A stretch of 64,000 nucleotides of DNA from assembly GCA_947650365.1 (NCBI GenBank), contig OX393551.1, positions 61,559,173 through 61,623,172 of the forward strand, read 5' to 3'. Origin of the DNA: Chamaelirium japonicum. Its lineage: Eukaryota > Streptophyta > Magnoliopsida > Liliales > Melanthiaceae. Below the pieces are notes generated by a model that saw only the letters and a program-made list of their open reading frames with translations, ran no database searches and had not been told where the DNA came from. Positions within the stretch are counted from its first letter, which is position 1. Each line of letters starts with the position of its first letter. Made by a program: the position numbers and the translations under genes. Below, in pieces: positions 1 to 38,898 of the stretch.

Positions 1-1
1 T

Positions 2-1081: not shown

Positions 1082-1089
1082 ATTTACAA

Positions 1090-1731: not shown

Positions 1732-1732
1732 T

Positions 1733-5665: not shown

Positions 5666-5696
5666 AATAAAATCCCCTAGCTTTGAGTAAAAAAAA
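5653..5696 (+). promoter_or_regulatory. LINE 3' tail: G-rich/C-rich motif, AATAAA signal, poly(A)
   Basis: The tail contains GGGCGGGGTCCC, one variable base, then AATAAAATCCCCTAG, with the AATAAA at 5666-5671, and ends in eight A residues. The same tail is kept in the second LINE at about 38815-38864, although the 3' UTRs are otherwise different. The GGGG and CCCC runs could pair around the AATAAA as a short hairpin. The motif may serve polyadenylation, RT recognition, or both. Confidence 0.75.
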
Positions 5697-6981
5697 GAAT
5701 GGATCGTACGAATGAATCAGAATGGATCGTACGAATGAATTAGAATGAATAGTACGAATGAATTAGAATGGATACATTCGAACGAATGAATTAGAATAGA
5801 TCATAGGAATGAATTAGAATGGATCATACGAATGAATTAGAATTGATCGTGCGAATGAATTAGAATGGATTGTACGAATGAATTAGAATGGATACATTCG
5901 TGCGAATGAAGTAGAATGGATCGTACGAATGAATTAGAATGGATCGTACGAATGAATTAGAATGAATCGTACGAATGAATTAGAATGGATACATTCGAAC
6001 GAATGAATTAGAATAGATCGTAGGAATGAATTAGAATGGACCATACGAATGAATTAGAATTGATCGTGCGAATGAATTAGAATGGATTGTACGAATGAAT
6101 TAGAATGGATACATTCGTGCGAATGAATTAGAATAGATCGTACGAATGAATAAGAATGGATCATGTGAATGAATTTGAATGGATCATATGAATGAATAAG
6201 AATGGATCGTACGAATGAATTAGAATGGATACATTCGAGCGAATGAATAAGAATGGATCGTACGAATGAATTAGAATGGATCATGCGAATGAATTTGAAT
6301 GGATCGTACGAATGAATAAGAATGGATCGTACGATTGAATTAGAATGGATACATTCGAGCGAATAAATTAGAATAGATCGTAGGAATGAAATAAAATGGC
6401 TGATACGAATGAATTAGAATGGATCGTGCGAATGAATTAGAATGGATCGTACGAATCAATTAGAATGGATCGTACGAATGAATTAGAATGGATATATTTA
6501 TGCGAATGAATTAGAATGGATCGAACGAATGAATTAGAATGGATACATTTGTGCGAATGAATTAGAATGGATCGTACGAATGAATTAGAATGGTTACATT
6601 CGTGCGAATGAATTAGAATGGATCGTACGAATGGATTAGAATGGATCGTACGAATGGATTAGAATGGATCGTACGAATGAATTAGAATGGATCGTACAAA
6701 TGAATTAGAAAGGTTACATTTATGAGAATGAATTAGAATGGATCGTACGAATGGATTAGAATTGATCGTACGAATGGATTAGAATGGATCGTACGAATGG
6801 ATAAGAATGGATCGTACGACTGGATTAGAATGGATCGTACGAATGAATTAGAATGGATCATACAAATGAATTAGAAAGGTTACATTCGTGAGAATGAATT
6901 AGAATGGATCGTGCGAATGAATGAGAATTGATCATACGGATGAATTAGAATGGATCGTACGAATGAATTAGATTGCATCGT
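5697..6981 (+). repeat. Satellite block 1 (+)
   Basis: The first ~430 bp follow HOR order. The rest is irregular and monomeric, with private variants such as AAAGGTTACATT. It ends at the palindrome CGTACG (6979-6984). Confidence 0.9.
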
Positions 6982-9549
6982 ACGATCCATTCTAATTCAT
7001 TCACACGATCCATTCCAATTCATTAGTACGATCCATTCTAATTCATTCGCACGAATGTATCCATACTAATTCATTCGTACGAATGTATCCATTCTAATTT
7101 ATTCGTACGATCAATTCTAATTCATTCGTACGATCCATTCTAATTCATTCGCACGAATGTATCCATTCTAATTCATTCACACAATCCATTCTAATTCATT
7201 CGCACGAATGTATCCATTCTAATTTATTCGTACGATCCAGTCTAAATCATTCGTACGATCCATTCTAATTCATTCGCACGAATGTATCCATTCTAATTCA
7301 TTCGTAAGATCCATTCTAATTCTTCATACGATCCATTCTAATTCATTCGCACGATCCATTCTAATTCATTCGTACGATCTATTCTAATTCCATTCTAATT
7401 CATTCGTACAATCCATTCTAATTCATTCGCACGATCCATTCTAATTCATTCGTATGATCTATTCTAATTCATTCCTACGATCTATTCTAATTCATTTGTT
7501 CGAATGTATCCATTCTAATTCATTCGTACGATCCATTCTAATTCATTCGTACGATCCATTCTAATTCATTCGCACGAATGTATCCATTCTAATTCCTTCG
7601 TACAATCCATTCTAATTCATTCGCACGATCAATTCTAATTCATTCGTATGATCCATTCTAATTCATTCCTACGATCTATTCTAATTCATTAGTTCGAATG
7701 TATCCATTCTAATTCATTCGTACGATTCATTCTAATTCATTCGTACGATCCATTCTAATTCATTCGTACGATCCATTCTACTTCATTCACACGAATGTAT
7801 CCACCATTCTATCGCACAAATGTATCCATTCTAATTCATTCGCTCGAATATATCCATTTTAATTCATTCGTACGATCCATTTTAATTCATTCGTACGATC
7901 TAATTCATTCATACGATCCATTATAATTCATTCGTATGATCGATTCTAATTCATTTGCACGATCCATTCTAATTCATTCGTACGATCCATTCTAATTCAT
8001 TCGTACGAATGTATCTATTCTAATTCATTCGTACAATCCATTCTAATTCATTCGCACGATCAATTCTAATTCATTCGTATGATCCATTCTTATTCATTAC
8101 TACGATCTATTCTAATTCATTCGTTCGAATGTATCCATTCTAATTCATTCGTACGATTCATTCTAATTCATTCGTACGATCCATTCTAATTCATTCGTAC
8201 GATCCATTCTACTTCATTCGCACGAATGTATCCATTCTAATTCATTCGTACAATCCATTCTAATTCATTCGCACGATCAATTCTAATTCATTCGTATGAT
8301 CCATTCTAATTCATTCCTACGATCTATTCTAATTCATTCGTTCGAATGTTTCCATTCTAATTCATTCGTACGATTCATTCTAATTCATTCGTATGATCCA
8401 TTCTGATTCATTCGTACGATCCATTCTACTTCATTCGCACGAATGTATTCATTCTAATTCATTCGTGTAATCCATTCTAATTCATTCACACGATCAATTC
8501 TAATTCATTCGTATGATCCATTCTAATTCATTCCTACGATCTATTCTAATTCATTCGGTCGAATGTATCCATTCTAATTCATTCGTACAATCCATTCTAA
8601 TTCATTCGCACGATCAATTCTAATTCATTCGTATGATCCATTCTAATTCATTCCTACGATCTATTCTAATTCATTCGTTCGAATGTTTCCATTCTAATTC
8701 ATTCGGACGATTCATTCTAATTCATTCGTACGATCCATTCTGATTCATTCGTACGATCCATTCTAATTCATTCGTACGATCCATTCTACTTCATTCGCAC
8801 GAATGTATCCATTCTAATTCATTCGTACGATCCATTCTACTTCATTCGCACGAATATATCCATTCTAATTCATTCGTACGATCCATTCTAATTCATTCGT
8901 ACGATCCATTCTAATTCATTCGTACGATCCATTCTACTTCATTCGCACGAATGTATCCATTCTAATTCATTCGTACAATCCATTCTAATTCTTTCGCACG
9001 ATCAATTCTAATTATTTCCTATGATCCATTCTAATTCATTCCTACGATCTATTCTAATTCATTCGTTCGAATGTATCCATTCTAATTTATTCGTACGATT
9101 CATTCTAATTCATTCGCACGATCAATTCTAATTCATTCGTATGATCCATTATAATTCATTCCTACGATCTATTCTAATTTATTCGTTCGAATGTATCCAT
9201 TCTAATTCATTCGTACGATTCATTCTAATTCATTCGTACGATCCATTCTAATTCATTCGCACGATCCATTCTACTTTATTCGCACGAATATATCCATTCT
9301 AATTCATTCGTACAATCAATTCTAATTCATTCGCACGATCAATTCTAATTCATTCGTATGATCCATTCTAATTCATTCCTACGATCTATTCTAATTCATT
9401 CGTTCGAATGTATCCATTCTAATTCATTCGTACGATTCATTCTAATTCATTCGTACGATCCATTCAAATTCATTCGTACGATCCATTCTACATCATTCGC
9501 ACGAATGTATCAATTCTAATTCATTCGTACGATCTATTCTAATTCATTC
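6982..9549 (-). repeat. Satellite block 2 (-)
   Basis: The reverse-complement monomer (CATTCTAATTCATTCG) is read. It is irregular up to about 8000 and HOR-ordered after that. It ends at ATTCATTCGTATGAATTAG, near 9550. Confidence 0.9.
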
Positions 9550-10824
9550 GTATGAATTAGAATGGATCGTACGAATGAATTAGAATGAATCGTACGAATG
9601 AATTAGAATGGATACATTCGAACGAATGAATTAGAATAGATCGTAGGAATGAATTAGAATGGATCATACGAATGAATTAGAATTGATCGTGCGAAAGAAT
9701 TAGAATGGATTGCACGAATGAATTAGAATGGATATATTCGTGCGAATGATGTAGAATGGATCGTACGAATGAATTTGAATGGATCGTACAAATGAATTAG
9801 AATGAATCGTACGAATGAATTAGAATGGATACATTCGAATGAATGAATTAAAATAGATCGTAGGAATGAATTAGAATGGATCATACGAATGAATTAGAAT
9901 TGATCGTGCGAATGAATTAGAATTGATTGTACGAATGAATTAGAATGGATACATTCGTGCGAATGAAGTAGAATGGATCGTGCGAATGAATTAGAATGGA
10001 TCGTACGAATGAATTAGAATGAATCGTACGAATGAATTAGAATGGATACATTCGAACGAATAAATTAGAATAGATCGTAGGAATGAATTAGAATGGATCA
10101 TACGAATGAATTAGAATTGATCGTGCGAATGAATTAGAATGAATCGTACGAATAAATTAGAATAGATACATTCGAACGAATGAATTAGAATAGATCGTAG
10201 GAATGAATTAGAATGGATCATACGAATGAATTAGAATTGATCGTGCGAAAGAATTAGAATGGATTGTACGAATGAATTAGAATGGATACATTCGTGCGAA
10301 TGAAGTAGAATGGATCGTACGAATGAATTAGAATGGATCGTACGAATGAATTAGAATGAATCGTACGAATAAATTAGAATGGATACATTCGAACGAATGA
10401 ATTAGAATAGATCGTAGAAATGAATTAGAATGGATCATACGAATGAATTAGAATTGATCGTGCGAATGAATTAGAATGGATTGTACGAATGAATTAGAAT
10501 GGATACATTCGTGCGAATGAAGTAGAATGGATCGTACGAATGAATTAGAATGGATCGTACGAATGAATTAGAATGAATCGTACGAATGAATTAGAATGGA
10601 TACATTCGAACGAATGAATTAGAATAGATCGTAGGAATGAATTAGAATGGACCATACGAAAGAATTAGAATTGATCGTGCGAATGAATTAGAATGGATTG
10701 CACGAATGAATTAGAATGGATACATTCGAGCGAATGAAGTAGAATGGATCGTACGAATGAATTAGAAATGATCGTGCGAATGAATTAGAATGGATTGTAC
10801 GAATGAATTAGAACGGATACATTC
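9550..10824 (+). repeat. Satellite block 3 (+)
   Basis: Consists mostly of 217-bp HORs with some shortened copies. The right junction is GATACATTCCGTACAATCC. Confidence 0.9.
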
Positions 10825-12965
10825 CGTACAATCCATTCTAATTCATTCGCACGATCAATTCTAATTCATTCGTATGATCCATTCTAATTCATTCCTACGA
10901 TCTATTCTAATTCATTCGTTCAAATGTATCCATTCTAATTCATTCGTACGATTCATTCTAATTCATTCGTACGATCCATTCTAATTCATTTGTACGATCC
11001 ATTCTACTTCATTCGCACGAATGTATGCATTCTAATTCATTCGTACAAACCATTTTAATTCATTCCTACGATTCATTCTAATTCATTCGTACGATCCATT
11101 CTAATTCATTCGTACGATCCATTCTACATCATTCGCACGAATGTATCCATTCTAATTCATTCGTACGATCCATTCTAATTCATTTGCACGATCCATTCTA
11201 ATTCATTCTCACAAATTTAACCTTTCTAATTCATTTGCACGATCTATTCAAATTCATTCGCACTATCCATTCTAATTCATTTGTATAATCCATTCTAATT
11301 CATTCGTACGATCCATTCTAATCCATTCGTACGATCCATGGTAATTCATTCGTACGATCCATTCTAATTCATTCCTACGATCCATTCTACTTCATTCGCA
11401 CGAATGTATCCATTCTAATTCATTCGTACAATCCATTCTAATTCATTCGCACGATCAATTCTAATTCATTCGTATGATCCATTCTAATTCATTCCTACGA
11501 TCTATTCTAATTCATTCGTTCGAATGTATCCATTCTAATTCATTCGTACGATTCATTCTAATTCATTCGTACGATCTATTCTAATTCATTCGTACGATCC
11601 ATTCTACTTCATTCGCTCGAATGTATCCATTCTAATTCATTCGTGCAATCCATTCTAATTCATTCGCACGATCAATTCTAATTCATTCGTATGATCCATT
11701 CTAATTCATTCCTACGATCTATTCTAATTCATTCGTTCGAATGTATCCATTCTAATTCATTCGTACGATTCATTCTAATTCATTCGTACGATCCATTCTA
11801 ATTCATTCGTACGATCCATTCTACTTCATTCGCACGAATGTATCCATTCTAATTCATTCGTACAATCCATTCTAATTCATTCGCACGATCAATTCTAATT
11901 CATTCGTTCGAATGTATCCATTCTAATTCATTTCTACGATCCATTCTAATTTATTCGTTCGAATGTATCCATTCTAATTCATTCGTACGATTCATTCTAT
12001 TTCATTCGTACGATCCATTCTAATTCATTCGTACGATCCATTCTAATTCATTCATACAATCCATTCTAATTAATTCGCACGATCAATTCTAATTCATTCG
12101 TATGATCCATTCTAATTCATTCCTACGATCTATTCTAATTTATTCGTTCGAATGTATCCATTCTAAGTCATTCGTACGATCCATTCTAACTAATTTGATC
12201 GAATGGATCCATTCTACTTCATTTGTACGATCCATTCTAATTCATTCACACGTTCTATTCTAATTCATTCATACGATCCATTCTAATTCATTCGTACGAT
12301 CCATTCTAATTCATTCTTACGATCTATTCTAATTCATTCGTTCGAATGTTTCCATTCTAATTCATTCGTACGATCAATTCCAATTCATTCGTACGATTCA
12401 TTCTAATTCATTCGTACGATCCATTCTAATTCATTCGTACGATCCATTCTACTTCATTCGCACGAATGTATCCATTCTAATTCATTCGTACGATCCATTC
12501 TACTTCATTCGCACGAATGTATCCATTCTAATTCATTCGTACTAATTCATTCGTACGATTCATTCTAATTCATTCCTACGATCTATTCTAATTCATTCGT
12601 TCGAATATTTCCATTCTAATTCATTCGTACGATTCATTCTAATTTATTCGTACGATCCATTCTAATTCATTCGTACGATCCATTCTACTTCATTCGCACG
12701 AATGTATCCATTCTAATTCATTCGTAAGATCCATTCTACTTCATTCGCACGAATGTATCCATTCTAATTCATTCGTACAATCCATTCTAATTCATTCGTA
12801 AGATCAATTCTAATTCATTCGTATGATCCATTCTAATTCATTCCTACGATCTATTCTAATTCATTCGTTCGAATGTTTCCATTCTAATTCATTCGTACGA
12901 TTCATTCTAATTCATTCGTACGATCCATTCTGATTCATTCGTACGATCCATTCTAATTCATTCGT
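10825..12965 (-). repeat. Satellite block 4 (-)
   Basis: HOR-ordered stretches are mixed with irregular ones. It contains an inverted copy of the rare CAAATTAGTTAG cassette (about 12178-12290). It ends at CGTACG (12963-12968), the centre of a ~40-bp perfect palindrome. Confidence 0.9.
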
Positions 12966-13486
12966 ACGAATGAATTAGAATGGATACATTCGTGGGAATG
13001 AAGTAGAATGGATCGTACGAATGAATTAGAATGGATCGTGCGAATGAAGTAGAATGGATCGTACGAATGAATTAGAGTGGATCGTACGAATGAATTAGAA
13101 TGAATCGTACGAATGAATTAGAATGGATACATTCGAACGAATGAATTAGAATAGATCGTAGGAATGAATTAGAATGGATCATACGAATGAATTAGAATTG
13201 ATCGTGCAAATGAATTAGAATGGATTGTAGGAATGAATTAGAATCGATTGTACGAATGAATTAGAATGGATACATTCGTGCGAATGAAGTAGAATGGATC
13301 GTACGAATGAATTAGAATGGATCGTACGAATGAATTAGAATGGATCAGACGAATGAAGTTGAATGGATCGTACGAGTGAATTAGAATAGATCGTAGGAAT
13401 GAATTAGAATGGATCATACGAATGAATTAGAATTGATCGTGCGAATGAATTAGAATGGATTGTACGAATGAATTAGAATGGATTGT
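12966..13486 (+). repeat. Satellite block 5 (+)
   Basis: A short block of about two disturbed HORs. The right junction is GATTGTACGATCC. Confidence 0.88.
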
Positions 13487-15652
13487 ACGATCCATTCTAA
13501 TTCATTCGTATGATTCATTCTAATTCATTCGTACGATCCATTCTAATTCATTCGTACGATCCATTCTACTTCATTCGTATGATCCATTCTAATTCATTCC
13601 TACGATCTATTCTAATTCATTCGTTCGAATGTATCCATTCTAATTCATTCGTACGATTCATTCTAATTCATTTGTACGATTCATTCTAATTCATTCGTAC
13701 GATCCATTCTAATTCATTCGTACGATCCATTCTACTTCATTCGCATGAATATATCCATTCTAACGAATGAATTAGAAATCTAATTCATTCGTACAATCCA
13801 TTCTAATTCATTCGCACGATCAATTCTAATTCATTCGTATGATCCATTCTAATTCATTCGTACGATCCATTCTAATTCATTCGTACGATCCATTCTACTT
13901 CATTCTCACGAATGTATCCATTCTAATTCATTCGTACAATCCATTCTAATTCATTCGCACGATCAATTCTAATTCATTCGTATGATCCATTCTAATTCAT
14001 TCCTACGATCTATTCTAATTCATTCGTTCGATCAATTCTAATTCATTCGTATAATCCATTCTAATTCATTCCTACGATCTATTCTAATTTATTCGTTCGA
14101 ATGTATCCATTCTAATTCATTCGTGCGTTCCATTCTACTTCATTCGCACGAATGTATCCATTCTAATTCATTCGTACAATCCATTCTAATTCATTCGCAC
14201 GATCAATTCTAATTCATTCGTATGATCCATTCTAATTCATTTGTATGATCCATTCTAATTCATTCGTACGATCCATTCTAATCCATTCGTACGATCCATG
14301 GTAATTCATTCGTACGATCCATTCAAATTCATTCGTACGATCCATTCTACTTCATTCGCACGAATGTATCCATTCTAATTCATTCGTACAATCCATTCTA
14401 ATTCATTCGCACGATCAATTCTAATTCATTCGTATGATCCATTCTAATTCATTCCTACGATCTATTCTAATTCATTCGTTCGAATGTATCCATTCTAATT
14501 CATTCGTATAATTCATTCTAATTCATTCGTACGATCCATTCTAATTCATTCGTACGATCCATTCTACTTCATTCGCACGAATGTATCCATTCTAATTCAG
14601 TCATACGATCCATTCTAATTCATTCACACGATCCATTCTAATTCATTTATACGATCCATTCTAATTCATTCGTACGATCCATTCTAATTCATTCGCACAA
14701 TCTATTCTAAGTCATTCGTACGATCCATTCTAATTCATTAGCACGATCCATTCTAATTCATTCGTACGATCCATTCTATTTCATTCGTACGATCCATTCT
14801 TACTCATTCGTACGATCCATTCTAATTCATTCGCATGAATGTATCCATTCTAATTCATTCGTACGATCCATTCTAATTCATTAGCACGATCCATTCTAAT
14901 TCATTCATACAATCCATTCTAATTCATTCACACGATCAATTCTAATTCATTCGTATGATCCATTCTAATTCATTCCTACGATCTATTCTAATATTCATTC
15001 GTTCGAATGTATCCATTCTAATTCATTCGTACGATTCATTCTAATTCATTAGTACGATCCATTCTAATTCATTCGTACGATCCATTCTACTTCATTCGCA
15101 CGAATGTATCCATTCTAATTCATTCCCATTCTAATTCATTCATACTATCCATTCTAATTCATTCGTACGATCCATTCTAATTCATACGTACGATCCATTC
15201 GAATTCATTCCTACGATCCAGTCTAATTCTTTGATACGATCCATACTAATTCATTCGCACGAATGTATCCATTCTAATTCATTTGTATGATCCATTCTAA
15301 TTCATTCGCACGATCCAATCTAATTCATTCGCACGATCCATTCTAATTCGTTCGTACGATCCATTCTATTTCATTCGTACGATCCATTCTTACTCATTCG
15401 TACAATCCATTCTATTTCATTCGTACGATCCATTCTTACTGATTCGTACGATATATTCTAATTTATTCGTTCGAATGTATCCATTCTAATTCATTCGTAC
15501 GATTCATTCTAATTCATTCGTACGATCCATTCTAGTTCATTCGTATGATCATTAAGGCAATTTGATTATCCTCACAAAAAATTAACAAAATCTGAAACTT
15601 CTAAGGGCGCCGATTGAATCAAACGTTTCTGAACCGTCTAATTCATTCGTTC
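13487..15652 (-). repeat. Satellite block 6 (-)
   Basis: Largely irregular. A ~14-bp micro-inverted piece sits at 13764-13777, and the non-satellite island 15551-15636 lies near the end. Orientation flips at TTCGAA (15650-15655). Confidence 0.88.
15551..15636. other. Non-satellite island A (86 bp)
   Basis: The satellite stops after CGTATGATC and restarts at TCTAATTCATTCG. The 86 bp between have no monomer words. The stretch 15586-15611, read in reverse complement, contains GGCGCCCTTAGAAGTTTC and matches island B at 28119-28144 with about five differences. No coding frame, terminal repeats or RNA gene were recognised. It is probably a remnant of another sequence trapped in the array. Confidence 0.85.
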
Positions 15653-15765
15653 GAATGGATACATTCGTGCGAATGATGTAGAATGGATCGTACGAATGAA
15701 TCAGAATGGATCGTACGAATAAATTAGAATGAATCGTATGAATGAATTAGAATGGAAACATTCGT
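15653..15765 (+). repeat. Satellite block 7 (+)
   Basis: Only about five monomers long. It ends inside a GGAAACATTCG monomer at CGTACG (15763-15768). Confidence 0.85.
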
Positions 15766-16102
15766 ACGATTCATTCTAATTCATTCGTACGATCCATTCT
15801 AATTCATTCGTACGATCCATTCTAGTTCATTCGCACGAATTTATCCATTCTAATTCATTCGTATGATCCATTCTAATTCATTCCTATGATCAACTCTAAT
15901 TCATTCGTACGATCCATTCTACGATCAACTCTAATTCATTCCTACGATCAACTCTAATTCATTCGCACGAATGTATCCATTCTAATTCATTCCAACGATC
16001 AACTCTAATTCATTCCTACGATCAACTCTAATTCATTCGTACGATCCATTCTGATTCATTCGTACGATCCATTCTACATCATTCGCACGAATGTATCCAT
16101 TC
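15766..16102 (-). repeat. Satellite block 8 (-)
   Basis: Carries a local run of CGATCAACTCTAATTC monomers not common elsewhere. It ends at TTCGAA (16100-16105). Confidence 0.85.
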
Positions 16103-19100
16103 GAACGAATGAATTAGAATAGATCGTAGGAATGAATTAGAATGGATCATACGAATAAATTAGAATTGATCGTGCGAATGAATTAGAATGGATCGTACGA
16201 ATGAATTAGAATGAATCGTACGAATGAATTAGAATGGATACATTCGAACGAATGAATTAGAATAGATCGTACGAATGAATTAGAATGGATACATTCGTGA
16301 GAATGAAGTAGAATGGATCGTACGAATGAATTAGAATGGATCGTACGAATGAATTAGAATGAATCGTACGAATGAATTAGAATTGATCGTACGAATGAAT
16401 TAGAATGGAAACATTCAAACGAATGAATTAGAATAGATCGTAGGAATGAATTAGAATGGATCGTACGAATGAATTAGAATGGATCGTATGAATGAATTAG
16501 AATAGAACGTGTGAATGAACTAGAATGGATCGTACGAATGAAGTAGAATGGATCCATTCGAGCAAATTAGTAAGAATGGATCGTACGAATGACTTAGAAT
16601 GGATCGTACGAATGAATTAGAATGGCTAGAATGGATCGAACGGATCGTACGAATGAATTAGAATGGATCGTACGAATGAATTAGAATGAATCGTACGAAT
16701 GAATTAGAATGGATACATCCGAATGAATGAATTAGAATAGATCGTAGGAATGAATTAGAATGAATCGTACGAATGAATTAGAATGGATACATTCGAACGA
16801 ATGAATTACACTAGATCGTAGGAATGAATTAGAATGGATCATACGAATGAATTAGAATTGATCGTGCGAATGAATTAGAATGGATTGTACGAATGAATTA
16901 GAATAGATCGTAGGAATGAATTAGAATGGATCATACAAATGAATTAGAAATGATGGTGCGAATGAATTAGAATGGATTGCACGAATGAATTAGAATGGAT
17001 ACATTCGTGCGAATAAAGTAGAATGGATCGTACGAATGAATTAGAATGGATCGTACGAATGAATTAGAATGAATCGTACGAATGAATTAGAATGGATACA
17101 TTCGAACGAATGAATTAGAATAGATCGTAGGAATGAATTAGAATGGATCATACGAATGAATTAGAATTGATCGTGCGAATGAATAAGAATGGATTGTACG
17201 GATGAATTAGAATGGATACATTCGTGCGAATGAAGTAGAATGGATCGTACGAATGAATTAGAATGGATCGAACGAATGAATTAGAATGGATACATTCGAA
17301 TGAATGAATTAGAATAAATAGTAGGAATAAATTAGAATGGATCATACGAATGAATTAGAATTGATCGTGCGAATGAATTAGAATGGATTGTACGAATGAA
17401 TTAGAATGGATACATTCGTGCGAATGAAGTAGAATGGATCGTACGAATGAATTAGAATGGATCGTACGAATGAATTAGAATGAATCGTATGAATGAATTA
17501 GAATGGATACATTTGAACGAATGAATTAGAATAGATCGTAGGAATGAATTAGAATGGATCATACGAATGAATTAGAATTGATCGTGCGAATGAATTAGAA
17601 TGGATTGTACGAATGAATTAGAATGGATACATTCGTGAGAATGAAGTAGAATGGATCGTACGAATGAATTAGAATGGATCATACGAATGAATTAGAATGA
17701 ATCATACAAATGAATTAGAATTGATACATTCGAACGAATGAATTAGAATAGATCGTAGGAATGAATTAGAATGGATCATACGAATGAATTAGAATTGATC
17801 GTGTGAATGAATTAGAATGGATCGTATGAATGAATTAGAAAGGATCATGCGAAGGAATTAGATTGGATCGTACGAATGAATTAGAATGGATACATTCGAA
17901 TGAATGAATTAGAATAGATCGTAGGAATGAATTACAATGGATACATTCGTCCGAATGAATTAGAATGGATCATACGAATGAATTAGAATAGATCGTACGA
18001 ATGAATTAGAATGGATCGTACGAATGAATTAGAATGGATCATAAGAATGAATTAGAATTGATCGTGCGAATGAATTAGAATGGATTGTACGAATGAATTA
18101 GAATGGATACATTCGTGCGAATGAAGTAGAATGGATCGTACGAATGAATTAGAATGAATCATACGAATGAATTAGAATTGATCGTGCGAATGAATTAGAA
18201 TGGATTGTACGAATGAATTAGAATGGATACATTCGTGCGAATGAAGTAGAATGGATCGTATGAATAAATTAGAATGAATCATACGAATGAATTAGAATTG
18301 ATCGTGCGAATGAATTAGAATGGATTGTACGAATGAATTAGAATGGATACATTCGTGCGAATGAATTAGAATGGATTGTACGAATGAATTAGAATGGATA
18401 CATACGTGCGAATAAAATAGAATGGATCGTACGAATGAATTAGAATGGATCGTACGAATGAATTAGAATGAATCGTACGAATGAATTAGAATGGATACAT
18501 TCGAACGAATGAATTAGAGTAGATCGTAGGAATGAATTAGAATGGATCATACGAATGAATTAGAATTGATCGTGCGAATTAATTAGAATGGATTGTACGA
18601 ATGAATTAGAATGGATACATTCGTGCGAATGAAGTAGAATGGATCGTATGAATGAATTAGAATAGATCGTACGAATGAATTAGAATGAATCGTACGAATG
18701 AATTTGAATGGATACATTCGAACGAATGAATTAGAATAGATCGTAGGAATGAATTAGAATGGATCATACGAATGAATTAGAATTGATCGTGCGAATGAAT
18801 TAGAATGGATTGTACGAATGAATTAGAATGGATACATTCGTGCGAATGAAGTAGAATGGATCGTACGAATGAATCAGAATGGATCGTACGAATGAATTAG
18901 AATGAATCGTACGAATGAATTAGAATGGATACATTCGAACGAATGAATTAGAATAGATCGTAGGAATGAATTAGAATGGATCATACGAATGAATTAGAAT
19001 TGATCGTGCGAATGAATTAGAATGGATTGTACGAATGAATTAGAATGGATACATTCGTGCGAATGAAGTAGAATGGATCGGACGAATGAATTAGAATGGA

Positions 19101-23125: not shown

Positions 23126-23238
23126 ACGAATGTTTCCATTCTAATTCATTCGTACGATTCATTCTAATTCATTCGTACGATCCATTCTGATTCATTCGTA
23201 CAATCCATTCTACATCATTCGCACGAATGTATCTATTC
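23126..23238 (-). repeat. Satellite block 16 (-)
   Basis: About five monomers. It ends at TTCGAA (23236-23241). Confidence 0.85.
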
Positions 23239-25368: not shown

Positions 25369-25735
25369 ACGATCCATTCTAATTCATTCGTATGATTCAT
25401 TCTAATTCATTCGTACGATCCATTCTAATTCATTCGTACGATCCATTCTACTTCATTCGTATGATCCATTCTAATTCATTCGTACGATCCATTCTAATTC
25501 ATTCGTGCGATCCATTCTACTTCATTCGCACGAATGTATCCATTCTAATTCATTCGTACAATCCATTCTAATTCATTCGTACAATCTATTCTAATTTATT
25601 CGCACGATCAATTCTAATTCATTCGTATGATCCATTCTAATTCATTCCTACGATCTATTCTAATTCATTCGTTCGAATGTATCCATTCTAATTCATTCGT
25701 ACGATCCATTCTAATTCATTCGTTCGAATGTATCC
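25369..25735 (-). repeat. Satellite block 20 (-)
   Basis: About 1.7 HORs. It ends at GTATCCAATGAATTAG, the same junction sequence as at 21815, which suggests a copied breakpoint. Confidence 0.87.
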
Positions 25736-26993
25736 AATGAATTAGAATGGATCATACGAATGAATTAGAATTGATCGTGCGAATGAATTAGAATGGATTG
25801 TACGAATCAATTAGAATGGATACATTCGAACGAATGAATTAGAATAGATCGTAGGAATGAATTAGAATGGATCATACGAATGAATTAGAATTGATCGTGC
25901 GAATGAAGTAGAATGGATCGTACGAATGAATTAGAATTGATCGTGGGAATGAATTAGAATGGATTGTACGAATGAATTAGAAGTAGAATGGATCGTACGA
26001 ATGAATTAGAATGGATCGTACGAATGAATTAGAATGGATCAAACGAATGAATTAGAATGAATGGTACGAATGAATTAGAATGGATACATTCGAACGAATG
26101 AATTAGAATAGATCGTAGGAATGAATTAGAATGGATCATACGAATGAATTAGAATTGATCGTGCGAATGAATTAGAATGGATTGCACGAATGAATTAGAA
26201 TGGATACATTCGTGCGAATGAAGTAGAATGGATCGTACGAATGAATTAGAATGGATCGTACGAATGAATTAGAATGAATCGTATGAATGAATTAGAATGG
26301 ATACATTCGAACGATTGAATTAGAATGGATCGTACGAATGAATTAGAATGGATCGTACGAATGAATTAGAATGAATCGTACGAATGAATTAGAATGGATA
26401 CATTTGAACGAATGAATTAGAATAGATCATAGGAATGAATTAGAATGGATCATACGAATGAATTAGAATGGATCGTACGAATGAATTAGAATGAATCGTA
26501 CGAATGAATTAGAATGGTGGATACATTCGTGCGAATGAAGTAGAATGGATCGTACGAATGAATTAGAATGGATCGTACGAATGAATTAGAATGAATCGTA
26601 CGAATAAATTAGAATGGATACATTCGAACGAATGAATTAGAATAGATCGTAGGAATGAATTAGAATGGATCATACGAATGAATTAGAATTGATCGTGCGA
26701 ATGAATTAGAATGGATTGTACGAATGAATTAGAATGGATACATTCGTGCGAATGAAGTAGAATGGATCGTACGAATGAATTAGAATGGATCGTACGAATG
26801 AATTAGAATGATGGAAACATTCGAACGAATGAATTAGAATAGATCGTAGGAATGAATTAGAATGGATCATACGAATGAATTAGAATTGATCGTGCGAATG
26901 AATTAGAATGGATTGTACGAATGAATTAGAATGGATACATTCGTGCGAATGAAGTAGAACGGATCGTACGAATGAATTAGAATGGATTGTACG
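25736..26993 (+). repeat. Satellite block 21 (+)
   Basis: HORs with several internal deletions. The right junction has a five-T run (TTGTACGTTTTTAATTC). Confidence 0.88.
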
Positions 26994-29900
26994 TTTTTAA
27001 TTCATTCGTTCGAATGTATCCATTCTAATTCATTCGTACGATTCATTCTAATTCATTCGTACGATCCATTCTAATTCATTCGTACGATCCATTCTACTTC
27101 ATTCGCATGAATGTATCCATTCTAATTCATTCGTACAATCCATTCTAATTCATTCGCACGATCAATTCTAATTCATTCGTATGATCCATTCTAATTCATT
27201 CCTACGATCTATTCTAATTCATTCGTTCGAATGTATCCATTCTAATTCATTCGTACGATTCATTCTAATTCATTCGTACGATCCATTCTAATTCATTCGT
27301 ACGATCCATTCTACTTCATTCGCACGAATGTATCCATTCTAATTCATTCGTACAATCCATTCTAATTCATTCGCACGATCAATTCTAATTCATTCGTATG
27401 ATCCATTCTAATTCATTTCTACGATCTATTCTAATTTATTCGTTCGAATGTATCCATTCTAATTCATTCGTACGATTCATTCTAATTCATTCGTACGATC
27501 CATTCTAATTCATTCGTACGATCCATTCTACTTCATTCGCACGAATGTATCCATTCTAATTCATTCGTACAATCCATTCTAATTCATTCGCACGATCAAT
27601 TCTAATTCATTCGTATGATCCATTCTAATTCATTTCTACGATCTATTCTAATTTATTCGTTCGAATGTATCCATTCTAATTCATTCGTACGATTCATTCT
27701 AATTCATTCGTACGATCCATTCTAATTCATTCGTACGATCCATTCTACTTCATTCGCACGAATGTATCCATTCTAATTCATTCGTACAATCCATTCTAAT
27801 TCATTCGCATGATCTATTCTAATTCATTCATATGATCCATTCTAATTCATTCCTACGATCTATTCTAATTCATTCGTTCGAATGTATCCATTCTAATTCA
27901 TTCGTATGATTCATTCTAATTCATTCGTACGATCCATTCTAATTCATTCGTACGATCCATTCTACTTCATTCTCACGAATGCATCCATTCTAATTCATTC
28001 GTATAATCCATTCTAATTCATTCGCACGATCAATTCTAATTCATTCGTATGATCCATTCTAATTCATTCCTACGTTCTATTCTAATTCATTCGTTCCATA
28101 AATTTAAATAACACATTTGACGCCCTTATAAGTTTCCGAATTTGCTGATCCATTTTAATTCATTCGTACGATCCATTCTAATTCATTCGCACAAATGTGT
28201 CCATTCTAATTCATTCGCTCGAATATATCTATTTTAATTCATTCGTACGATCCATTCTAATTCATTCGTACGATCTAATTCATTCATACGATCCATTCTA
28301 ATTCATTCGTATGATCGATTCTAATTCATTTGCACGATCCATTCTAATTCATTCGTACGATCCATTCTAATTCATTCATATGATTCATTCTAATCCATTC
28401 GTACGATCCATTTAATTCATTCGTACGATCAATTCTAATTCATTCTCACAAATGTAACCTTTCTAAATCATTTGTACGATCCATTCAAATTCATTCGTAC
28501 GATCCATTCTAATTCATTCCTACGATCTATTCTAATTCATTCGTTCGAATGTATCCATTCTAATTCATAATTACGATCTATTCTAATTCATTCGTACGAT
28601 CCATTCTACTTCATTCGCACGAATGTATCCATTCTAATTCATTCGTACAATCCATTCTAATTCATTCGCACGATCAATTATAATTCATTCGTATGATCCA
28701 TTCTAATTCATTCCTATGATCTATTCTAATTCATTCGTTCGAATGTATCCATTCTAATTCATTCGTATGATTCATTCTAATTCATTCGTACGATCCATTC
28801 TATTTCATTCGTAAGATCCATTCTACTTCATTCGCACGAATGTATCCATTCTAATTCCATCGTACAATCCATTTTAATTCATTCGCACGATCAATTCTAA
28901 TTCATTCGTATGATCCATTCTAATTCATTCCTATGATCTATTCTAATTCATTAGTTCGAATGTATCCATTCTAATTCATTCGTACGATTCATTCCAATTC
29001 ATTCGTACGATCTATTCTAATTCATTCGTACGATCCATTCTACTTCATTCGCACGAATGTATCCATTCTAATTCATTCGTACAATCCATTCTAATTCATT
29101 CGCACGATCAATTCTAATTCATTCGTATGATCCATTCTAATTCATTCCTACGATCTATTCTAATTCATTCGTTCGAATGTATCCATTCTAATTCATTCGT
29201 ACGATTCATTCTAATTCATTCGTACGATCCATTCTACATCATTCGTACGATCCATTCTACTTCATTCGCACGAATGTATCCATTCTAATTCATTCGTACA
29301 ATCCATTCTAATTCATTCGCACGATCAATTCTAATTCATTCGTATGATCCATTCTAATTCATTCCTACGATCTATTCTAATTCATTCGTTCGAATGTATC
29401 CATTCTAATTCATTCGTACGATTCATTCTAATTCATTCATACGATCCATTCTAATTCATTCGTACGATCCATTCTAATTCATTCGCACGAATGTATTCAT
29501 TCTAATTCATTCGTACAATCCATTATAATTCATTCGCACGATCCATTCTAATTCATTCGCACGATCAATTCTAATTCATTCGTATGATCCATTCTAATTC
29601 ATTCCTACGATCTATTCTAATTCATTCGTTCGAATGTATCCGTTCTAATTCATTCGTACGATTCATTCTATTTCATTCGTACGATCCATTCTAATTCATT
29701 CGTACGATCCATTCTACTTCATTCGCACGAATGTATCCATTGCACGAATGTATCCATTCTAATTCATTCGTACAATCCATTCTAATTCATTCGCACGATC
29801 AATTCTAATTCATTCGTATGATCCATTCTAATTCATTCCTACGATCTATTCTAATTCGTTCGAATGTTTCCATTCTAATTCATTCGTACGATTCATTCTA

Positions 29901-30171
29901 ATTCATTCGTACGATCCATTCTGATTCATTCGTACGATCCATTCTACTTCATTCGCACGAATGTATCCATTCTAATTCATTCGTGCAATCCATTCTAATT
30001 CATTCGCACGATCAATTCTAATTCATTCGTATGATCCATTCTAATTCTTTCCTACGATCTATTCTAATTCATTCGTTCGAATGTATCCATTCTAATTCAT
30101 TCGTACAATCCATTAATTCATTCGCACGATCAATTCTAATTCATTCGTATGATCCATTCTAATTCATTCGT
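26994..30171 (-). repeat. Satellite block 22 (-)
   Basis: Well ordered HORs at 27000-28080 and 28600-30100, with a disordered centre around island B (28097-28146). It ends at CGTACG (30169-30174), the centre of a ~40-bp perfect palindrome. Confidence 0.92.
28097..28146. other. Non-satellite island B (~50 bp)
   Basis: A monomer stops at TCATTCGTTC, and about 50 bp without satellite words follow before GATCCATTTTAATTC resumes. The core 28119-28144 contains GACGCCCTTATAAGTTTC and matches island A in reverse complement. No gene or terminal repeat was recognised. Confidence 0.85.
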
Positions 30172-32577
30172 ACGAATGAATTAGAATGGATACATTCGAA
30201 CGAATGAATTAGAATAGATCGTAGGAATGAATTAGAATGATTCATACGAATGAATTAGAATTGATCGTGCGAATGAATTAGAATGGATTGTAAGAATGAA
30301 TTAGAATGGATACATTCGTGCGAATGAAGTAGAATGGATCGTACGAATGAATTAGAATGGATCGTACGAATGAATTAGAATGAATCGTATGAATGAATTA
30401 GAATGGATAAATTCGAACGAATGAATTAGAATAGAACGTAGGAATGAATTAGAATGGATCATACGAATGAATTAGAATTGATCGTGCGAATGAATTAGAA
30501 TGGATTGTACGAATGAATTAGAATGGATACATTTGTGAGAATGAAGTAGAATGGATCGTACGAATGAATTAGAATGGATCGTACGAAAGAATTAGAATGA
30601 ATCATACGAATGAATTAGAATGGATACATTCGAACGAATGAATTAGAATAGATCGTAGGAATCAATTAGAATGGATCATACGAATGAATTAGAATTGATC
30701 GTGCGAATGAATTAGAATGGATTGTACGAATGAATTAGAATGGATACATTCGTGCGAATGAAGTAGAATGGATCGTACGAATGAATTAGAATGGATCGTA
30801 CGAATGAATTAGAATGAATCATACGAATGAATTGGAATGGATACATTCGAACGAATGAATTAGAATAGATCGTAGGAATGAATTAGAATGGATCATACGA
30901 ATGAATTAGAATTGATCGTGCGAATGAATTAGAATGGATTGTACGAATGAATTAGAATGGATACATTCGTGCGAATGAAGTAGAATGGATCGTACGAATG
31001 AATTAGAATGGATCGTACGAATGAATTAGAATGAATCATACGAATGAATTAGAATGGATACATTCGAACGAATGAATTAGAATAGATCGTAGGAATGAAT
31101 TAGAATGGATCATACGAATGAATTAGAATTGATCGTGCGAATGAATTAGAATGGATTGTACGAATGAATTAGAATGGATACATTCGTGCGAATGAAGTAG
31201 AATGGATCGTACGAATGAATTAGAATGGATCGACGAATGAATTAGAATTGATCGTGCGAATGAATTAGAATGGATTGTACGAATGAATTAGAATGGATAC
31301 ATTCGTGCGAATGAAGTAGAATGGATCGTACGAATGAATTAGAATGGATCGTTCGAATGAATCAGAATGGATCGTATGAATGAATTAGAATGAATCGTAC
31401 GAATGAATTAGAATGAAAACATTCGGACGAATGAATTAGAATAGATCGTAGGAATGAATTAGAATGGATCATACGAATGAATTAGAATTGATCGTGCGAA
31501 TGAATTAGAATGGATTGTACGAATGAATTAGAATGGATACATTCGTGCGAATGAAGCAGAATGGATCGTACGAATGAATTAGAATGGATCGTACGAATGA
31601 ATTAGAATGAATCGTACGAATGAATTAGAATGGATACATTCGAACGAATGAATTAGAATAGATCGTAGGAATGAATTAGAATGGATCATACGAATGAATT
31701 AGAATTGATCGTGCGAATGAATTAGAATGGATTGTACGAATGAATTAGAATGGATATATTCGTGCGAATGAAGTAGAATGGATCGTACGAATGAATTAGA
31801 ATGGATACATTCGTGCGAATGAAGTAGAATGGATCGTACGAATGAATTAGAATGGATCGTACAACTGAATTAGAATGAATCGTATGAATGAATAAGAATG
31901 GATACATTCGAACGAATGAATTAGAATAGATTGTACAAATGAATTAGAATGGATACATTCGTGCGAATGAAGTAGAATGGATCGTACGAATGAATTAGAA
32001 TGGATCGTGCGAATGAATTAGAATGGATTGTACGAATGAATTAGAATGGATACATTCGTGCGAATGAAGTAACGAAAGAATTAGAATAGATCGTAGGAAT
32101 GAATTAGAATGGATCTTACGAATGAATTAGAATGGATCGTATGAATGAATTAGAATAGAACGTGTGAATGAACTAGAATGGATCGTACGAATGAAGTAGA
32201 ATGGATCCATTCGAGCAAATTAGTTAGAATGGATCGTACGAATGACTTAGAATGGATCGTACGAATGAATAAGAATGGATTGTACGAATGAATTAGAATG
32301 GCTAGAATGGATCGTACGAATGAATTAGAATGAATTGTACGAATGAATTAGAATGGATACATTCGAACGAATAAATTAGAATAGATCGTAGGAATGAATT
32401 AGAATGGATCATACGAATGAATTAGAATTGATCGTGCGAATGAATTAGAATGGATTGTACGAATGAATTAGAATGGATACATTCGTGCGAATGAAGTAGA
32501 ATGGATCGTACGAATGAATTAGAATGGATCGTACGAATGAATTAGAATGAATCACGAATGAATTAGAATAGAATAGA
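30172..32577 (+). repeat. Satellite block 23 (+)
   Basis: Clean 217-bp HORs from 30180 to about 31230, then disturbed copies, with rare cassette copy 2 near the end. The junction is GATCACGAATGTATCC. Confidence 0.92.
32151..32310 (+). repeat. Rare monomer cassette, copy 2
   Basis: Same ordered unusual monomers as at 16495. It is collinear with copy 3 at an offset of exactly 5700 bp. Confidence 0.85.
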
Positions 32578-34034
32578 TCACGAATGTATCCATTCTAATT
32601 CATTCATACGATCCATTCTACTTCATTCACACGAATGTATCCATTCTAATTCATTCGTTCAATCCATTCAAATTCATTCGCACGATCAATTCTAATTCAT
32701 TCGTATGATCCATTCTAATTCATTCCTACGATCTATTCTATTTCATTCGTTCGAATGTATCCATTCTAATTCATTCGTACGATCTATTCTAATTCATTCG
32801 CACGAATGTATCCATTCTAATTCATTCGTACAATCCATTCTAATTCATTCGCACGATCAATTCTAATTCATTCGTATGATCCATTCTACTTCATTCGCAC
32901 GAATGTATCCATTCTAATTCATTCGTACAATCCATTCTAATTCATTCACACGATCAATTCTAATTCATTCGTATGATCCATTCTAATTCATTCCTACGAT
33001 CTATTCTAATTCATTCGTTCGAATGTTTCCATTCTAATTCATTCTAATTCATTCGTTCGAATGTATCCATTCTAATTCATTCGTACGATCCATTCTAATT
33101 CATTCGTACGATCCATTCTACTTCATTCGCACGAATGTATCCATTCTAATTCATTCGTACAATCCATTCTAATTCATTCGCACGATCAATTCTAATTCAT
33201 TCGTATGATCCATTCTAATTCATTCCTACGATCTATTCTAATTCATTCGTTCGAATGTATCCATTCTAATTCATTCGTACGATTCATTCTAATTCATTCG
33301 TATGATCCATTCTAATTTATTCGTACGATCCATTCTACTTCATTCGCACGAATGTATCCATTCTAATTCATTCGTGCAATCCATTCTAATTCATTCGCAC
33401 GATCATTTCAAATTCATTCGTATGATCCATTCTAATTCATTCCTACGATCTATTCTAATTCATTCGTACAATCCATTCTAATTCATTCGCACGATCAATT
33501 CTAATTCATTCGTATGACCCATTCTAATTCATTCCTACGATCTATTCTAATTCATTCGTTCGAATGTATCCATTCTAAATCATTCGTACGATTCATTCTA
33601 ATTCATTCGTACGATCCATTCTAATTCATTCGTACGATCCATTCTACTTCATTCGCACGAATGTATCCATTCTAATTCATTCGTACAATCCATTCTAATT
33701 CATTCGCACGATCAATACTAATTCATTCGTATGATCCATTCTACTTCATTCGCACGAATGTATCCATTCTAATTCATTCGTGTAATCCATTCTAATTCAT
33801 TCGCACGATCAATTCTAATTCATTCGTATGATCCATTCTACTTCATTCGCACGAATGTATCCATTCTAATTCATTCGTACAATCCATTCTAATTCATTCG
33901 TACGATCAATTCTAATTCATTCGTATGATCCATTCTAATTCATTCCTACAATCTATTCTAATTCATTCGCACGAATGTATCCATTCTAATTCATTCGTAC
34001 AATCCATTCTAATTCATTCGCACGATCAATTCTA
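32578..34034 (-). repeat. Satellite block 24 (-)
   Basis: HOR-ordered with several shortened copies. It is paralogous to 42239-44019. The junction is CAATTCTAAGAATGG. Confidence 0.9.
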
Positions 34035-34909
34035 AGAATGGATCGTACGAATGAATCAGAATGGATCGTACGAAGGAATTAGAATGAATAATACGAATTA
34101 ATTAGAATGGATACATTCGAACGAATGAATTAGAATAGATCATAGGAATGAATTAGAATGGATCATACGAATGAATTAGAATTGATCGTGCGAATGAATT
34201 AGAATGGATTGTACGAATGAATTAGAATGGATACATTCGTGAGAATGAAGTAGAATGGATCGTACGAATGAATTAGAATGGATCGTAGGAATGATGTAGA
34301 ATGGATCGTATGAATTAATTAGAATGGATCGTACGAATGAATTAGAATGGATCGTACGAATGAATTAGAATGGATCGTACGAATGAATTAGAATGGATAC
34401 ATTCGTGCGAATGAAGTAGAATGGATCAAACGAATGAATTAGAATAGATTGTAGGAATGAACTAGAATGGATCATACGAATGAATTAGAATTGATCGTGC
34501 GAATGAATTAGAATGGATTGCACGAATGAATTAGAATGGATACATTCGTGCGAATAAAGTAGAATGGATCGTACGAATGAATTAGAATGGATCGTACGAA
34601 TGAATTAGAATGAATCGTACGAATGAATTAGAATGGATACATTCGAACGAATAAATTAGAATAGATCGTAGGAATGAATTAGAATGGATCATACGAATGA
34701 ATTATAATTGATCGTGCGAATGAATTAGAATGGATTGTACGAATGAATTAGAATGGATACATTCATGCGAATGAAGTAGAATGGATCGTACGAATGAATT
34801 AGAATGGATCGTACGAATGAATTAGAATGAATAGTACGAATGAATTAGAATGGATACATTCGAACGAATGAATTAGAATAGATCGTAGGAATGAATTAGA
34901 ATGGATCAC
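34035..34909 (+). repeat. Satellite block 25 (+)
   Basis: Paralogous to 44020-44848, including the rare monomers GTAGGAATGATGTAG and ATTATAATTGATCG. The junction is GGATCACGAATGTATCC. Confidence 0.9.
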
Positions 34910-35839
34910 GAATGTATCCATTCTAATTCATTCGTACGATCCATTCTACTTCATTCGCACGAATGTATCCACTCTAATTCATTCGTACAATCCATTCTAA
35001 TTCATTCGCACGATCAATTCTAATTCATTCGTATGATCCATTCTAATTCATTCCTACGATCTATTCTAATTCATTCGTTCGAATGTTTCCATTCTAATTC
35101 ATTCGTACGATTCATTCTAATTCATTCGTACGATCCGATCTGATTCATTCGTACGATCCATTCTAATTCATTCGTACGATCCATTCTACTTCATTCGCAC
35201 GAATGGATCCATTCTAATTCATTCGTACAATCCATTCTAATTCATTCGTACGATTCATTCTAATTCATTCCTACGATCTATTCTAATTCATTCGTTCGAA
35301 TGTTTCCATTCTAATTCATTCGTACGATTCATTATAATTCATTCATACGATCCATTCTAATTCATTCGTACGATCCATTCTACTTCATTCGCACGAATGT
35401 ATCCATTCTAATTCATTCGTACGATCCATTCTACTTCATTCGCACGAATGTATCCATTCTACTTCATTCGCACGAATGTATCCATTCTAATTCATTCGTA
35501 CAATCCATTCTAATTCATTCGCACGATCAATTCTAATTCATTCGTATGATCCATTCTAATTCATGCCGATCCATTGCATTCTAATTCATTCGTACAATCC
35601 ATTCTAATTCATTCGCACGATCAATTCTAATTCATTCGTATGATCCATTCTAATTCATTCCTATGATCTATTCTAATTCATTCGTTCGAATGTATTCCTT
35701 CTAATTCATTCGTACGATCCATTCTAATTCATTCGTACGATCCATTCTACTTCATTCGCACGAATCGCACGATCATTTGTAATTCATTCGTATGATCCAT
35801 TCTAATTCATTCCTACGATCTATTCTAATTCATTCGTTC
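34910..35839 (-). repeat. Satellite block 26 (-)
   Basis: Paralogous to 44849-45751; both hold the odd phrase TCATGCCGATCCATTGCATT (35561 and 45473). It ends at TTCGAA (35837-35842). Confidence 0.9.
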
Positions 35840-37850
35840 GAATGAATTAGAATAGATCATAGGAATGAATTAGAATGGATCATACGAATGAATTAGAAAT
35901 GATCGTGCGAATGAATTAGAATGGATTGTACGAATGAATTAGAATGGATACATTCGTGCGAATGAAGTAGAATGGATCGTACGAATGAATTAGAATGGAT
36001 CGTACGAATGAATTAGAATGAATCGTACGAATGAATTAGAATGGATACATTCGAACGAATGAATTAGAATAGATTGTAGGAATAAATTAGAATGGATCAT
36101 ACGAATGAATTAGAATTGATCGTGCGAATGAATTAGAATGGATTGTACGAATGAATTAGAATGGATACATTCGTGCGAATGAAGTAGAATGGATCGTACG
36201 AATGAATTAGAATGGATCGTACGAATGAATTAGAATGAATCATACGAATGAATTAGAATGGAAACATTCGAACGAATGAATTAGAATAGATCGTAGGAAT
36301 GAATTATAATGAATCGTACGAATGAATTAGAATGGATTGTACGAATGAATTAGAATGGATCCATTCGTGCGAATGAAGTAGAATGGATCGTACGAATGAA
36401 TTAGAATGGATCGTACGAATGAATTAGAAGGAATACATTCGAACGAATGAATTAGAATAGATCGTAGGAATGAATTAGAATGGATCATACGAATGAATTA
36501 GAATTGATCGTGCAAATGAATTAGAATGGATTGTACGAATGAATTAGAATGCAATGGATCGGAATGAATTAGAATGGATCATACGAATGAATTAGAATTG
36601 ATCGTGCGAATGAATTAGAATGGATTGTACGAATGAATTAGAATGGATACATTCGTGCGAATGAAGTAGAATGGATCGTACGAATGAATTAGAATGGATC
36701 GTACGAATGAATTAGAATGAATCGTACGAATGAATTAGAATGGATACATTCGAACGAATGAATTAGAATAGATCGTAGGAATGAATTAGAATAGATCATA
36801 CGAATGAATTAGAATTGATCGTGCGAATGAATTAGAATGGATACATTCGAACAAATGAATTAGAATAGATCGTAGGAATGAATTAGAATGGATCATACGA
36901 ATGAATTAGAATTGATCGTGCGAATGAATTAGAATGGATTGTACGAATGAATTAGAATGGATACATTCGTGCGAATGATGTAGAATGGATCGTACGAATG
37001 AATCAGAATGGATCGTATGAATGAATTAGAATGAATCGTACGAATAAATTAGAATGGATACATTCGAACGAATGAATTAGAATAGATCATAGGAATGAAT
37101 TAGAATGGATCATACGAATGAATTAGAATTGATCTTGCGAATGAATTAGAATGGATTGTACGAATGAATTAGAATGGATACATTCGTGCGAATGAAGTAG
37201 AATGGATCGTACGAATGAATTAGAATGGATCGTACGAATGAATTAGAATGAATCGTACGAATGAATTAGAATGGATACATTCGAACTAATGAATTAGAAT
37301 AGATCATAGGAATGAATTAGAATGGATCATACGAATGAATTAGAATTGATCGTGCGAATGAATTAGAATGGATTGTACGAAGGAATTAGAATGGATACAT
37401 TCGTGCGAATGAAGTAGAATGGATCATACGAATGAATTAGAATGGATCATACGAATGAATTAGAATAGATACATTCGAACGAATGAATTAGAATAGATCA
37501 TAGGAATGAATTAGAATGGATCATACGAATGAATTAGAATTGATCGTGTGAATGAATTAGAATGGATACATTCGTGCGAATGAATTAGAATTGATCGTGC
37601 GAATGAATTAGAATGGATTGTACGAATGAATTAGAATGGATACATTCGTGCGAATGAATTAGAATGGATTGTACGAATGGATCGTACGAATGAATTAGAA
37701 TAGATCGTGCGAATGAATTAGAATGGATTGTACGAATGAATTAGAATGGATACATTCGTGTGAATGAAGTAACGAATGAATTAGAATAGATCGTAGGAAT
37801 GAATTAGAATGGATCATACGAATGAATTAGAATGGATCGTATGAATGAAT

Positions 37851-38010
37851 TAGAATAGAACGTGTGAATGAACTAGAATGGATCGTACGAATGAAGTAGA
37901 ATGGATCCATTCGAGCAAATTAGTTAGAATGGATCGTACGAATGACTTAGAATGGATCGTACGAATGAATAAGAATGGATCGTACGAATGAATTAGAATG
38001 GCTAGAATGG
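37851..38010 (+). repeat. Rare monomer cassette, copy 3
   Basis: Collinear with copy 2 (32151-32310) at an offset of 5700 bp, with only a few substitutions. Confidence 0.85.
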
Positions 38011-38243
38011 ATCGTACGAATGAATTAGAATGAATCGTACGAATGAATTAGAATGGATACATTCGAACGAATAAATTAGAATAGATCGTAGGAATGAATT
38101 AGAATGGATCATACGAATGAATTAGAATTGATCGTGCGAATGAATTAGAATGGATTGTACGAATGAATTAGAATGGATATATTCGTGCGAATGAAGTAGA
38201 ATGGATCGTACGAATGAATTAGAATGGATCGTACGAATGAATT

Positions 38244-38258
38244 AGAATGAATCATACG
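38244..38258 (+). repeat. Target-site duplication, left copy
   Basis: AGAATGAATCATACG here is repeated after the poly(A) at 38864-38878; the first A may belong to the tail. Removing the LINE and one copy restores satellite monomers in perfect register. Confidence 0.9.
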
Positions 38259-38654
38259 TACTGTGGTCCTTCCAGGCATAAGCAAATTGCAGAAGTTGAA
38301 TTGGAGGCTATAGAGCAAGGGCTGGTTTATGCAGAAAATCTGAATATATCTCAGTATTGGATTGAATCAGATTCTCTTTTAGCTGTGAACTATATTAAAA
38401 ACGTTTATTCTATCCCTTGGAATTGTTCTCATCAAGTTCAGTATATTCAGAAGAAGCTGAATCAGTTTAGGCATTTCCAAATTACTCATATTCTGAGAGA
38501 AGGAAATCAAGCAGCTGATGTGCTCTCTAAAATGGGACAGAATATGGATCATGTTACTGAACTTTATTCTGAGGATCTTAAAGGCAATTTGAGAATTGCT
38601 ATTGAAGCTGATAATATGCAAAAAGGTTATGACAGGAAAGATAATAGCTTTTGA
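38259..38654 (+). pseudogene. LINE ORF2 C-terminal fragment: partial RNase H domain
   Basis: The frame remains open through the insert to TGA 38652-38654. An ATG at 38247 lies in satellite DNA and is a chance start. Counting from it, the fragment has E18 (VELEAI), D42 (IESDS) and D91 (QAADVLSK), equivalent to E1054, D1078 and D1127 of the first LINE. The first catalytic aspartate (NTDGS) and all upstream domains are missing because of 5' truncation, so it cannot act as an RNase H or support transposition. No internal stop or frameshift is visible, which fits a dead-on-arrival but young copy. Confidence 0.9.
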
Positions 38655-38850
38655 TGCTGATATTGCTGAAAGATTAAGGCAGAAGGGCTGTGCTGGAGTG
38701 GAATTGGATCTGTAATTGGAGTTCTTTTTCCTTTGTGTCTAGTTGTAAATTTTGGTTTGGTTTTGATTTTTTGGACTTGTATGGAAGTCTTTAGTTGTAA
38801 TGATGTTCTTTGAAGGGCGGGGTCCCTAATAAAATCCCCTAGATTTGATC
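38655..38850 (+). other. 3' UTR and tail of second LINE
   Basis: T- and G-rich non-coding sequence unlike the 3' UTR of the first LINE until the common tail at about 38815. The AATAAA signal is at 38828-38833. It lacks the GATAGCTGCTGCA repeats of the first LINE. Confidence 0.8.
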
Positions 38851-38864
38851 AAAAAAAAAAAAAA

Positions 38865-38898
38865 GAATGAATCATACGAATGAATTAGAATGGATCGT
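38865..38898 (+). repeat. Satellite block 27 (+), right of second LINE
   Basis: Starts with GAATGAATCATACG, the right copy of the target-site duplication. After about 34 bp it flips at GGATCGTACAATCC. Confidence 0.9.

Follow-up and report, generated by a model that had tools for sequence, protein, structure and literature searches.

Among plant long interspersed nuclear elements (LINEs), insertion of an L1 in a satellite at TTCTA is already published for dodder, Cuscuta europaea (PMC8091179). The L1-CS LINEs of this species insert in the 389-bp satellite CUS-TR24 at 5'-TTCTA-3' and 5'-TTTCAA-3', their ends are shifted by about 13 to 16 bp, and RNase H is present in the Cuscuta LINEs (PMC8091179). 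No further direct case of satellite targeting by a plant LINE was found among the matches listed in our literature search, judged by title and the start of the abstract. Celine, a centromeric LINE of Populus, makes duplications that average 15 bp, with G or T as the first duplicated base in 90%, usually after A, and its upper-strand motif is AA/GA or AA/TA (PMC11288735). In one plant L1 group, conservation over the last few dozen nucleotides greatly exceeds that of the remaining element (PMC3747384, the Ohshima review). We analyzed a stretch of 64,000 nucleotides from Chamaelirium japonicum (contig OX393551.1, positions 61,559,173 to 61,623,172; hereafter the window), in which two L1-type LINEs stand at the same phase and in the same orientation of a 23-bp satellite (Table 1). 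They are very probably two ordinary L1 insertions of different subfamilies, with the phase set by the one good nick site that each monomer offers.

The elements in the window resemble L1-CS as plant L1s with endonuclease, reverse transcriptase (RT), and RNase H domains, a TTCT/AATT site in a satellite, and a 15-bp duplication (PMC8091179). The two cases differ in the satellite itself, since the CUS-TR24 monomer is 389 bp long and the monomer here 23 bp, and the CUS-TR24 probe matches the window at no more than 52%. The L1-CS primers match at no more than 68%, a figure that settles nothing on lineage. L1-CS elements often lie in reverse to the CUS-TR24 consensus (the choice of strand is arbitrary), while both LINEs here share the orientation of the monomer's + strand (PMC8091179). 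Celine is likewise a plant LINE with poly(A) and a 15-bp duplication but, unlike the present elements, sits in CENH3-binding domains with CRM elements (PMC11288735).

Insertion phase and the nick site in the monomer

Both 3' junctions can be read directly. Each poly(A) tail is followed by GAATG, and a 23-phase model of the array places the point at which the satellite resumes between AATTA and GAATG, in the same monomer phase and on the same strand for both elements, as the initial annotation had proposed. The first tail comprises 8 A, the last of which may be the satellite's, and the second 14 A, the last of which is common to the duplication. The 15-bp target-site duplication reported earlier around the second LINE is also plainly visible, its two copies being identical. 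Because the first A of the duplication may belong to the tail, the lower-strand cut reads either CATTCT/AATT or CATTC/TAATT, with the same ambiguity in both elements.

Against the L1 consensus TTTT/AA, we scored each of the 46 positions at which the consensus monomer could be nicked. The lower-strand site CATTCT/AATT is unique in scoring 5/6; one other position scores 4/6, and the remaining 44 score no more than 3/6. The TTCT/AATT nick that had been called L1-like is therefore the single best in the monomer. Each candidate site in the array was then given a phase by a 46-state model. Under uniform cutting, the probability that two insertions share phase and strand is 0.022. Among TTTT/AA sites scoring at least 5/6, 1972 of 2020 lie at the observed phase and strand, which raises the probability of coincidence to 0.953; a fixed position left unexplained by general nick preference, as expected of a target-specific LINE, is thus not what we found. 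The corresponding count for TTCT/A is 2217 of 2234 (coincidence P = 0.985). Set against about 2499 monomer-equivalents, these 2217 sites agree with the earlier statement that most monomers supply one. Upper-strand A/GA falls at the same point in 2313 of 2636 occurrences if the ambiguous A is assigned to the tail (coincidence 0.780), and TTTC/AA occurs once in the satellite. Except in the form of the strict Celine motif or of TTTC/AA, an L1-type preference is enough to explain the phase: the two LINEs share phase and orientation because each monomer holds one good L1-type nick site, counting either strand. The caveat that ordinary preference might yield the same phase, raised when the pair was first described, is hereby quantified and proves sufficient.

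Several observations weigh against this reading. The Celine motif, read strictly as AA/GA or AA/TA (PMC11288735), would favor another phase in this satellite: of 467 such sites, 274 lie at phase 3 and 30 at phase 0, and the coincidence is 0.377. The insertions number only two, and for the first LINE the 5' end and upstream flank lie beyond the window, which places its duplication out of reach. The window also holds a copy of the second LINE's left flank that lacks the LINE. This copy is 99.2% identical over 396 bp (32159-32554), and 50-bp tiles of the flank from 37700 to 38249 match it at 0.96 to 1.00 with an offset of 5700. A single equivalent of the duplication is present in it, shortened by 2 bp, and identity continues for another 13 bases before the two regions diverge. 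For this reason it was downgraded from a full empty site, the reading first considered, to a copy of the left side alone, and it does not tell whether duplication or insertion came first. Finally, 31 bp separate the end of the second LINE from a switch in satellite orientation, a proximity that nick preference does not explain; chance is plausible, because 4.2% of the 1937 candidate TTCT/AA sites lie equally near a switch.

In the mechanism that we favor, two plant-type L1s would have inserted separately, next to or into the 23-bp satellite, by target-primed reverse transcription. A lower-strand nick made by the endonuclease at CATTCT/AATT would prime reverse transcription of the RNA from its poly(A) end, and the duplication would arise from another cut some 15 bp off. 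What we infer is the preference of the enzyme, based on its homology to L1 and on the sites published for plant L1s, and also the presence of satellite upstream of the first LINE.

Identity and independence of the two LINEs

Both elements are, judged by their sequences, L1-clade LINEs of plant type. A C-terminal RNase H of RVT_3 type, which marks plant L1s and indicates a flowering plant as host, is predicted in both, and both end in poly(A); a target-site duplication can be checked for the second only. In RT comparisons with the first LINE, R2 (E 4e-13) ranks below the chains that bear the name LINE-1 ORF2 protein (E=7.8e-46 and weaker). The combination of an L1-type APE endonuclease with an L1-type RT comes from the first LINE, the second being truncated. 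The RPISLCN motif of this RT presumably looks less like LINE-CS than like other plant L1 groups, which we take as a lead only. Open reading frame 2 (ORF2) of the first LINE is otherwise open but shifts frame at 1697-1731, between endonuclease and RT, and is thus split; the change could be genuine or a sequencing error. The ORF2 protein, a pattern of the conserved tail, and a pattern of the satellite gave no match in viral_contigs, and none of five pattern matches for the ORF2 protein was confirmed in genome_contigs; neither of these is a plant collection, and the negatives carry little weight.

The two elements differ markedly. They share 50.8% amino acid identity over 126 aligned residues of ORF2 and 234 of 354 bases in the RNase H region, and because of this divergence we regard them as separate insertions of different subfamilies. 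The 3' untranslated regions (UTRs) measure 460 bp in the first and 209 bp in the second, each with poly(A); a 3' UTR identity of 0.796 was set aside, as it came from a heavily gapped global alignment. An apparent difference between the places of the two LINEs in the 217-bp higher-order unit was also left unused as a sign of independence, since several alignments compete and, close to the first LINE, the 217-bp period is loose (0.773, versus 0.849 at 120 bp).

Against this background, the last 36 or so bases before poly(A) stand out: 32 of 36 are identical, clearly above the identity of the coding region. They contain AATAAA, and the motif GGGCGGGGTCCCnAATAAAATCCCCTAG directly precedes poly(A). 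A conserved 3' end is likewise found in the plant L1 group noted above, in which the tail forms a hairpin with compensatory changes (PMC3747384), whereas folding of the present tails does not surpass that of shuffled sequences (z -0.24 and +0.76; two sequences only). A conserved tail with a stem-loop would be expected of a stringent-type LINE. A role of the conserved tail in recognition is possible.

Table 1. Features of the LINEs and the satellite in the 64,000-nucleotide window
Feature	Positions	Strand	Basis or remark
First L1-type LINE	1-5696	+	Satellite model begins at 5696; 5' end beyond window; poly(A) 5689-5696
Open frame upstream of ORF2, at the position of ORF1	2-1081	+	Without Pfam match
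First LINE, ORF2 endonuclease part (Exo_endo_phos)	1066-1731	+	Pfam E=2.9e-9; LINE-1 ORF2 endonuclease 1vyb E=1.4e-5
First LINE, remainder of ORF2 (RVT_1, zf-RVT, C-terminal RNase H RVT_3)	1697-5236	+	Pfam E=7.7e-47, 4.2e-18, 5.7e-20
Conserved 3' tail of first LINE, GGGCGGGGTCCC.AATAAAATCCCCTAG.TTTGA	5653-5688	+	32/36 aligned bases as in second LINE
23-bp satellite array, consensus TCGTACGAATGAATTAGAATGGA	5696-64000	.	Strand model; broken by second LINE and short non-satellite pieces
Satellite run right after first LINE	5696-6977	+	Strand model
Copy of second LINE's left flank, without LINE	31990-32554	+	Likeness ends 13 bp past duplication
Target-site duplication, upstream copy AGAATGAATCATACG	38244-38258	+	Sequence
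Second LINE, 5'-truncated within RNase H domain	38259-38863	+	RVT_3 E=1.4e-15; boundaries from satellite model; poly(A) 38851-38864
Conserved 3' tail of second LINE	38815-38850	+	Alignment to tail of first LINE
Target-site duplication, downstream copy AGAATGAATCATACG	38864-38878	+	Sequence
Switch of satellite orientation, + to -	38894-38895	.	31 bp after end of second LINE

Possible satellite targeting and other candidate origins of the shared phase

The strongest competitor to ordinary insertion is an L1 lineage that targets the satellite: its endonuclease would prefer TTCTA, and LINEs would accumulate in the satellite well out of proportion to the genome fraction that it makes up, in the manner of L1-CS. 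We consider this possible but hold it to be clearly the less likely account. In its favor, the density of TTCT/A sites in the satellite (2234 in 57.5 kb) is about 8 times that of the other sequence (31 in 6.5 kb), and the window has just two non-satellite stretches longer than 120 bp, namely these two L1s, which have the tail in common. There is also a precedent, in that 91% of 97,860 L1-CS elements are associated with CUS-TR24 (PMC8091179). The enrichment shrinks, however, when sites are defined by TTTT/AA at 5/6 or better (2020 in 57.5 kb versus 169 in 6.5 kb, only about 1.35 times richer), and perfect TTTTAA is rarer in the satellite (13 in 57.5 kb versus 5 in 6.5 kb); the 6.5-kb control behind these ratios is small and nearly all LINE. 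The phase by itself does not discriminate between the two accounts. The suggestion of satellite homing in the initial annotation accordingly loses the support of phase, each monomer having essentially one L1-type site, but stands unrefuted in view of the TTCT/A density and the Cuscuta precedent. A tentative proposal, to which we give slightly less weight still, is that a further plant L1 lineage beside L1-CS has made its main home in this 23-bp satellite, unrelated to CUS-TR24, by way of an endonuclease that prefers TTCTA.

Target-specific LINEs with dedicated recognition are known, among them R1, SART/TRAS, and Tx1-like elements. Homing of this kind, in which the element would recognize satellite sequence outside the nick hexamer, would fit the same phase and strand in both of two cases and the retention of a tail of about 36 nt between otherwise differing elements. 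We nevertheless judge it very unlikely: nick preference alone already predicts the phase, and the tails, compared by eye only, are unlike the satellite monomer. A comparison of longer contexts is precluded, as the satellite to the right of the second LINE reverses about 30 bp on and the left flank of the first lies beyond the window.

A single ancestral insertion copied together with the array, its phase inherited, would draw on the segmental duplications that are common here, but we reject it, since the LINEs share only 50.8% over 126 amino acids (and 234 of 354 bases) where satellite copies are often 93 to 99% alike, and since their 3' UTRs differ in length.

Orientation mosaic of the array, and lessons of the window for L1 insertion

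The satellite occupies about 57.5 kb of the window. Its two orientations are nearly balanced (+, 30.4 kb; -, 27.1 kb), and periods of 97, 120, and 217 bp are seen beyond that of the monomer. Monomer strings of 15 to 17 bases were not found in print within the open-licence literature. The strand model gives at least 41 direct switches of orientation in the 57.5 kb, and a simpler count gives 43 orientation runs over the whole window. This mosaic is more unusual than the phase of the LINEs. By their 40-bp context the 41 switches form 24 groups, and many of them are therefore copies. Twelve of the 41, in 3 groups, reflect about the 8-bp palindrome of the monomer, TCGTACGA, or a near variant. Two other reflection axes, away from the palindrome, recur in 7 and 5 of the 41 switches; since several axes recur, TCGTACGA is not the sole pivot. 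The switches may stem from fold-back or from template switching at the palindrome, and assembly effects may also lie behind them.

Two series of four switches with matching contexts, at 32586-35833 and 42245-45745, lie 9.7 to 10.0 kb apart and point to segmental duplication of the inverted mosaic. Separately, two short non-satellite inserts on opposite strands (15541-15630 and 28091-28150) share GAAACTT.TAAGGGCG and are perhaps remnants of one sequence.

For L1 insertion, the window illustrates how unrelated insertions come to seem targeted when a tandem repeat of short period offers a single good nick site, and it serves as a warning that homing should not be inferred from phase alone. If these LINEs prove to be enriched in the satellite genome-wide, this would put a second case beside Cuscuta and suggest that satellites, by their base sequence, can be sinks for L1s. 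Should the proposed TTCTA-preferring lineage prove true, L1s would have come to colonize satellites via a common short motif on more than one occasion, and satellites would be sinks that draw L1s away from genes.

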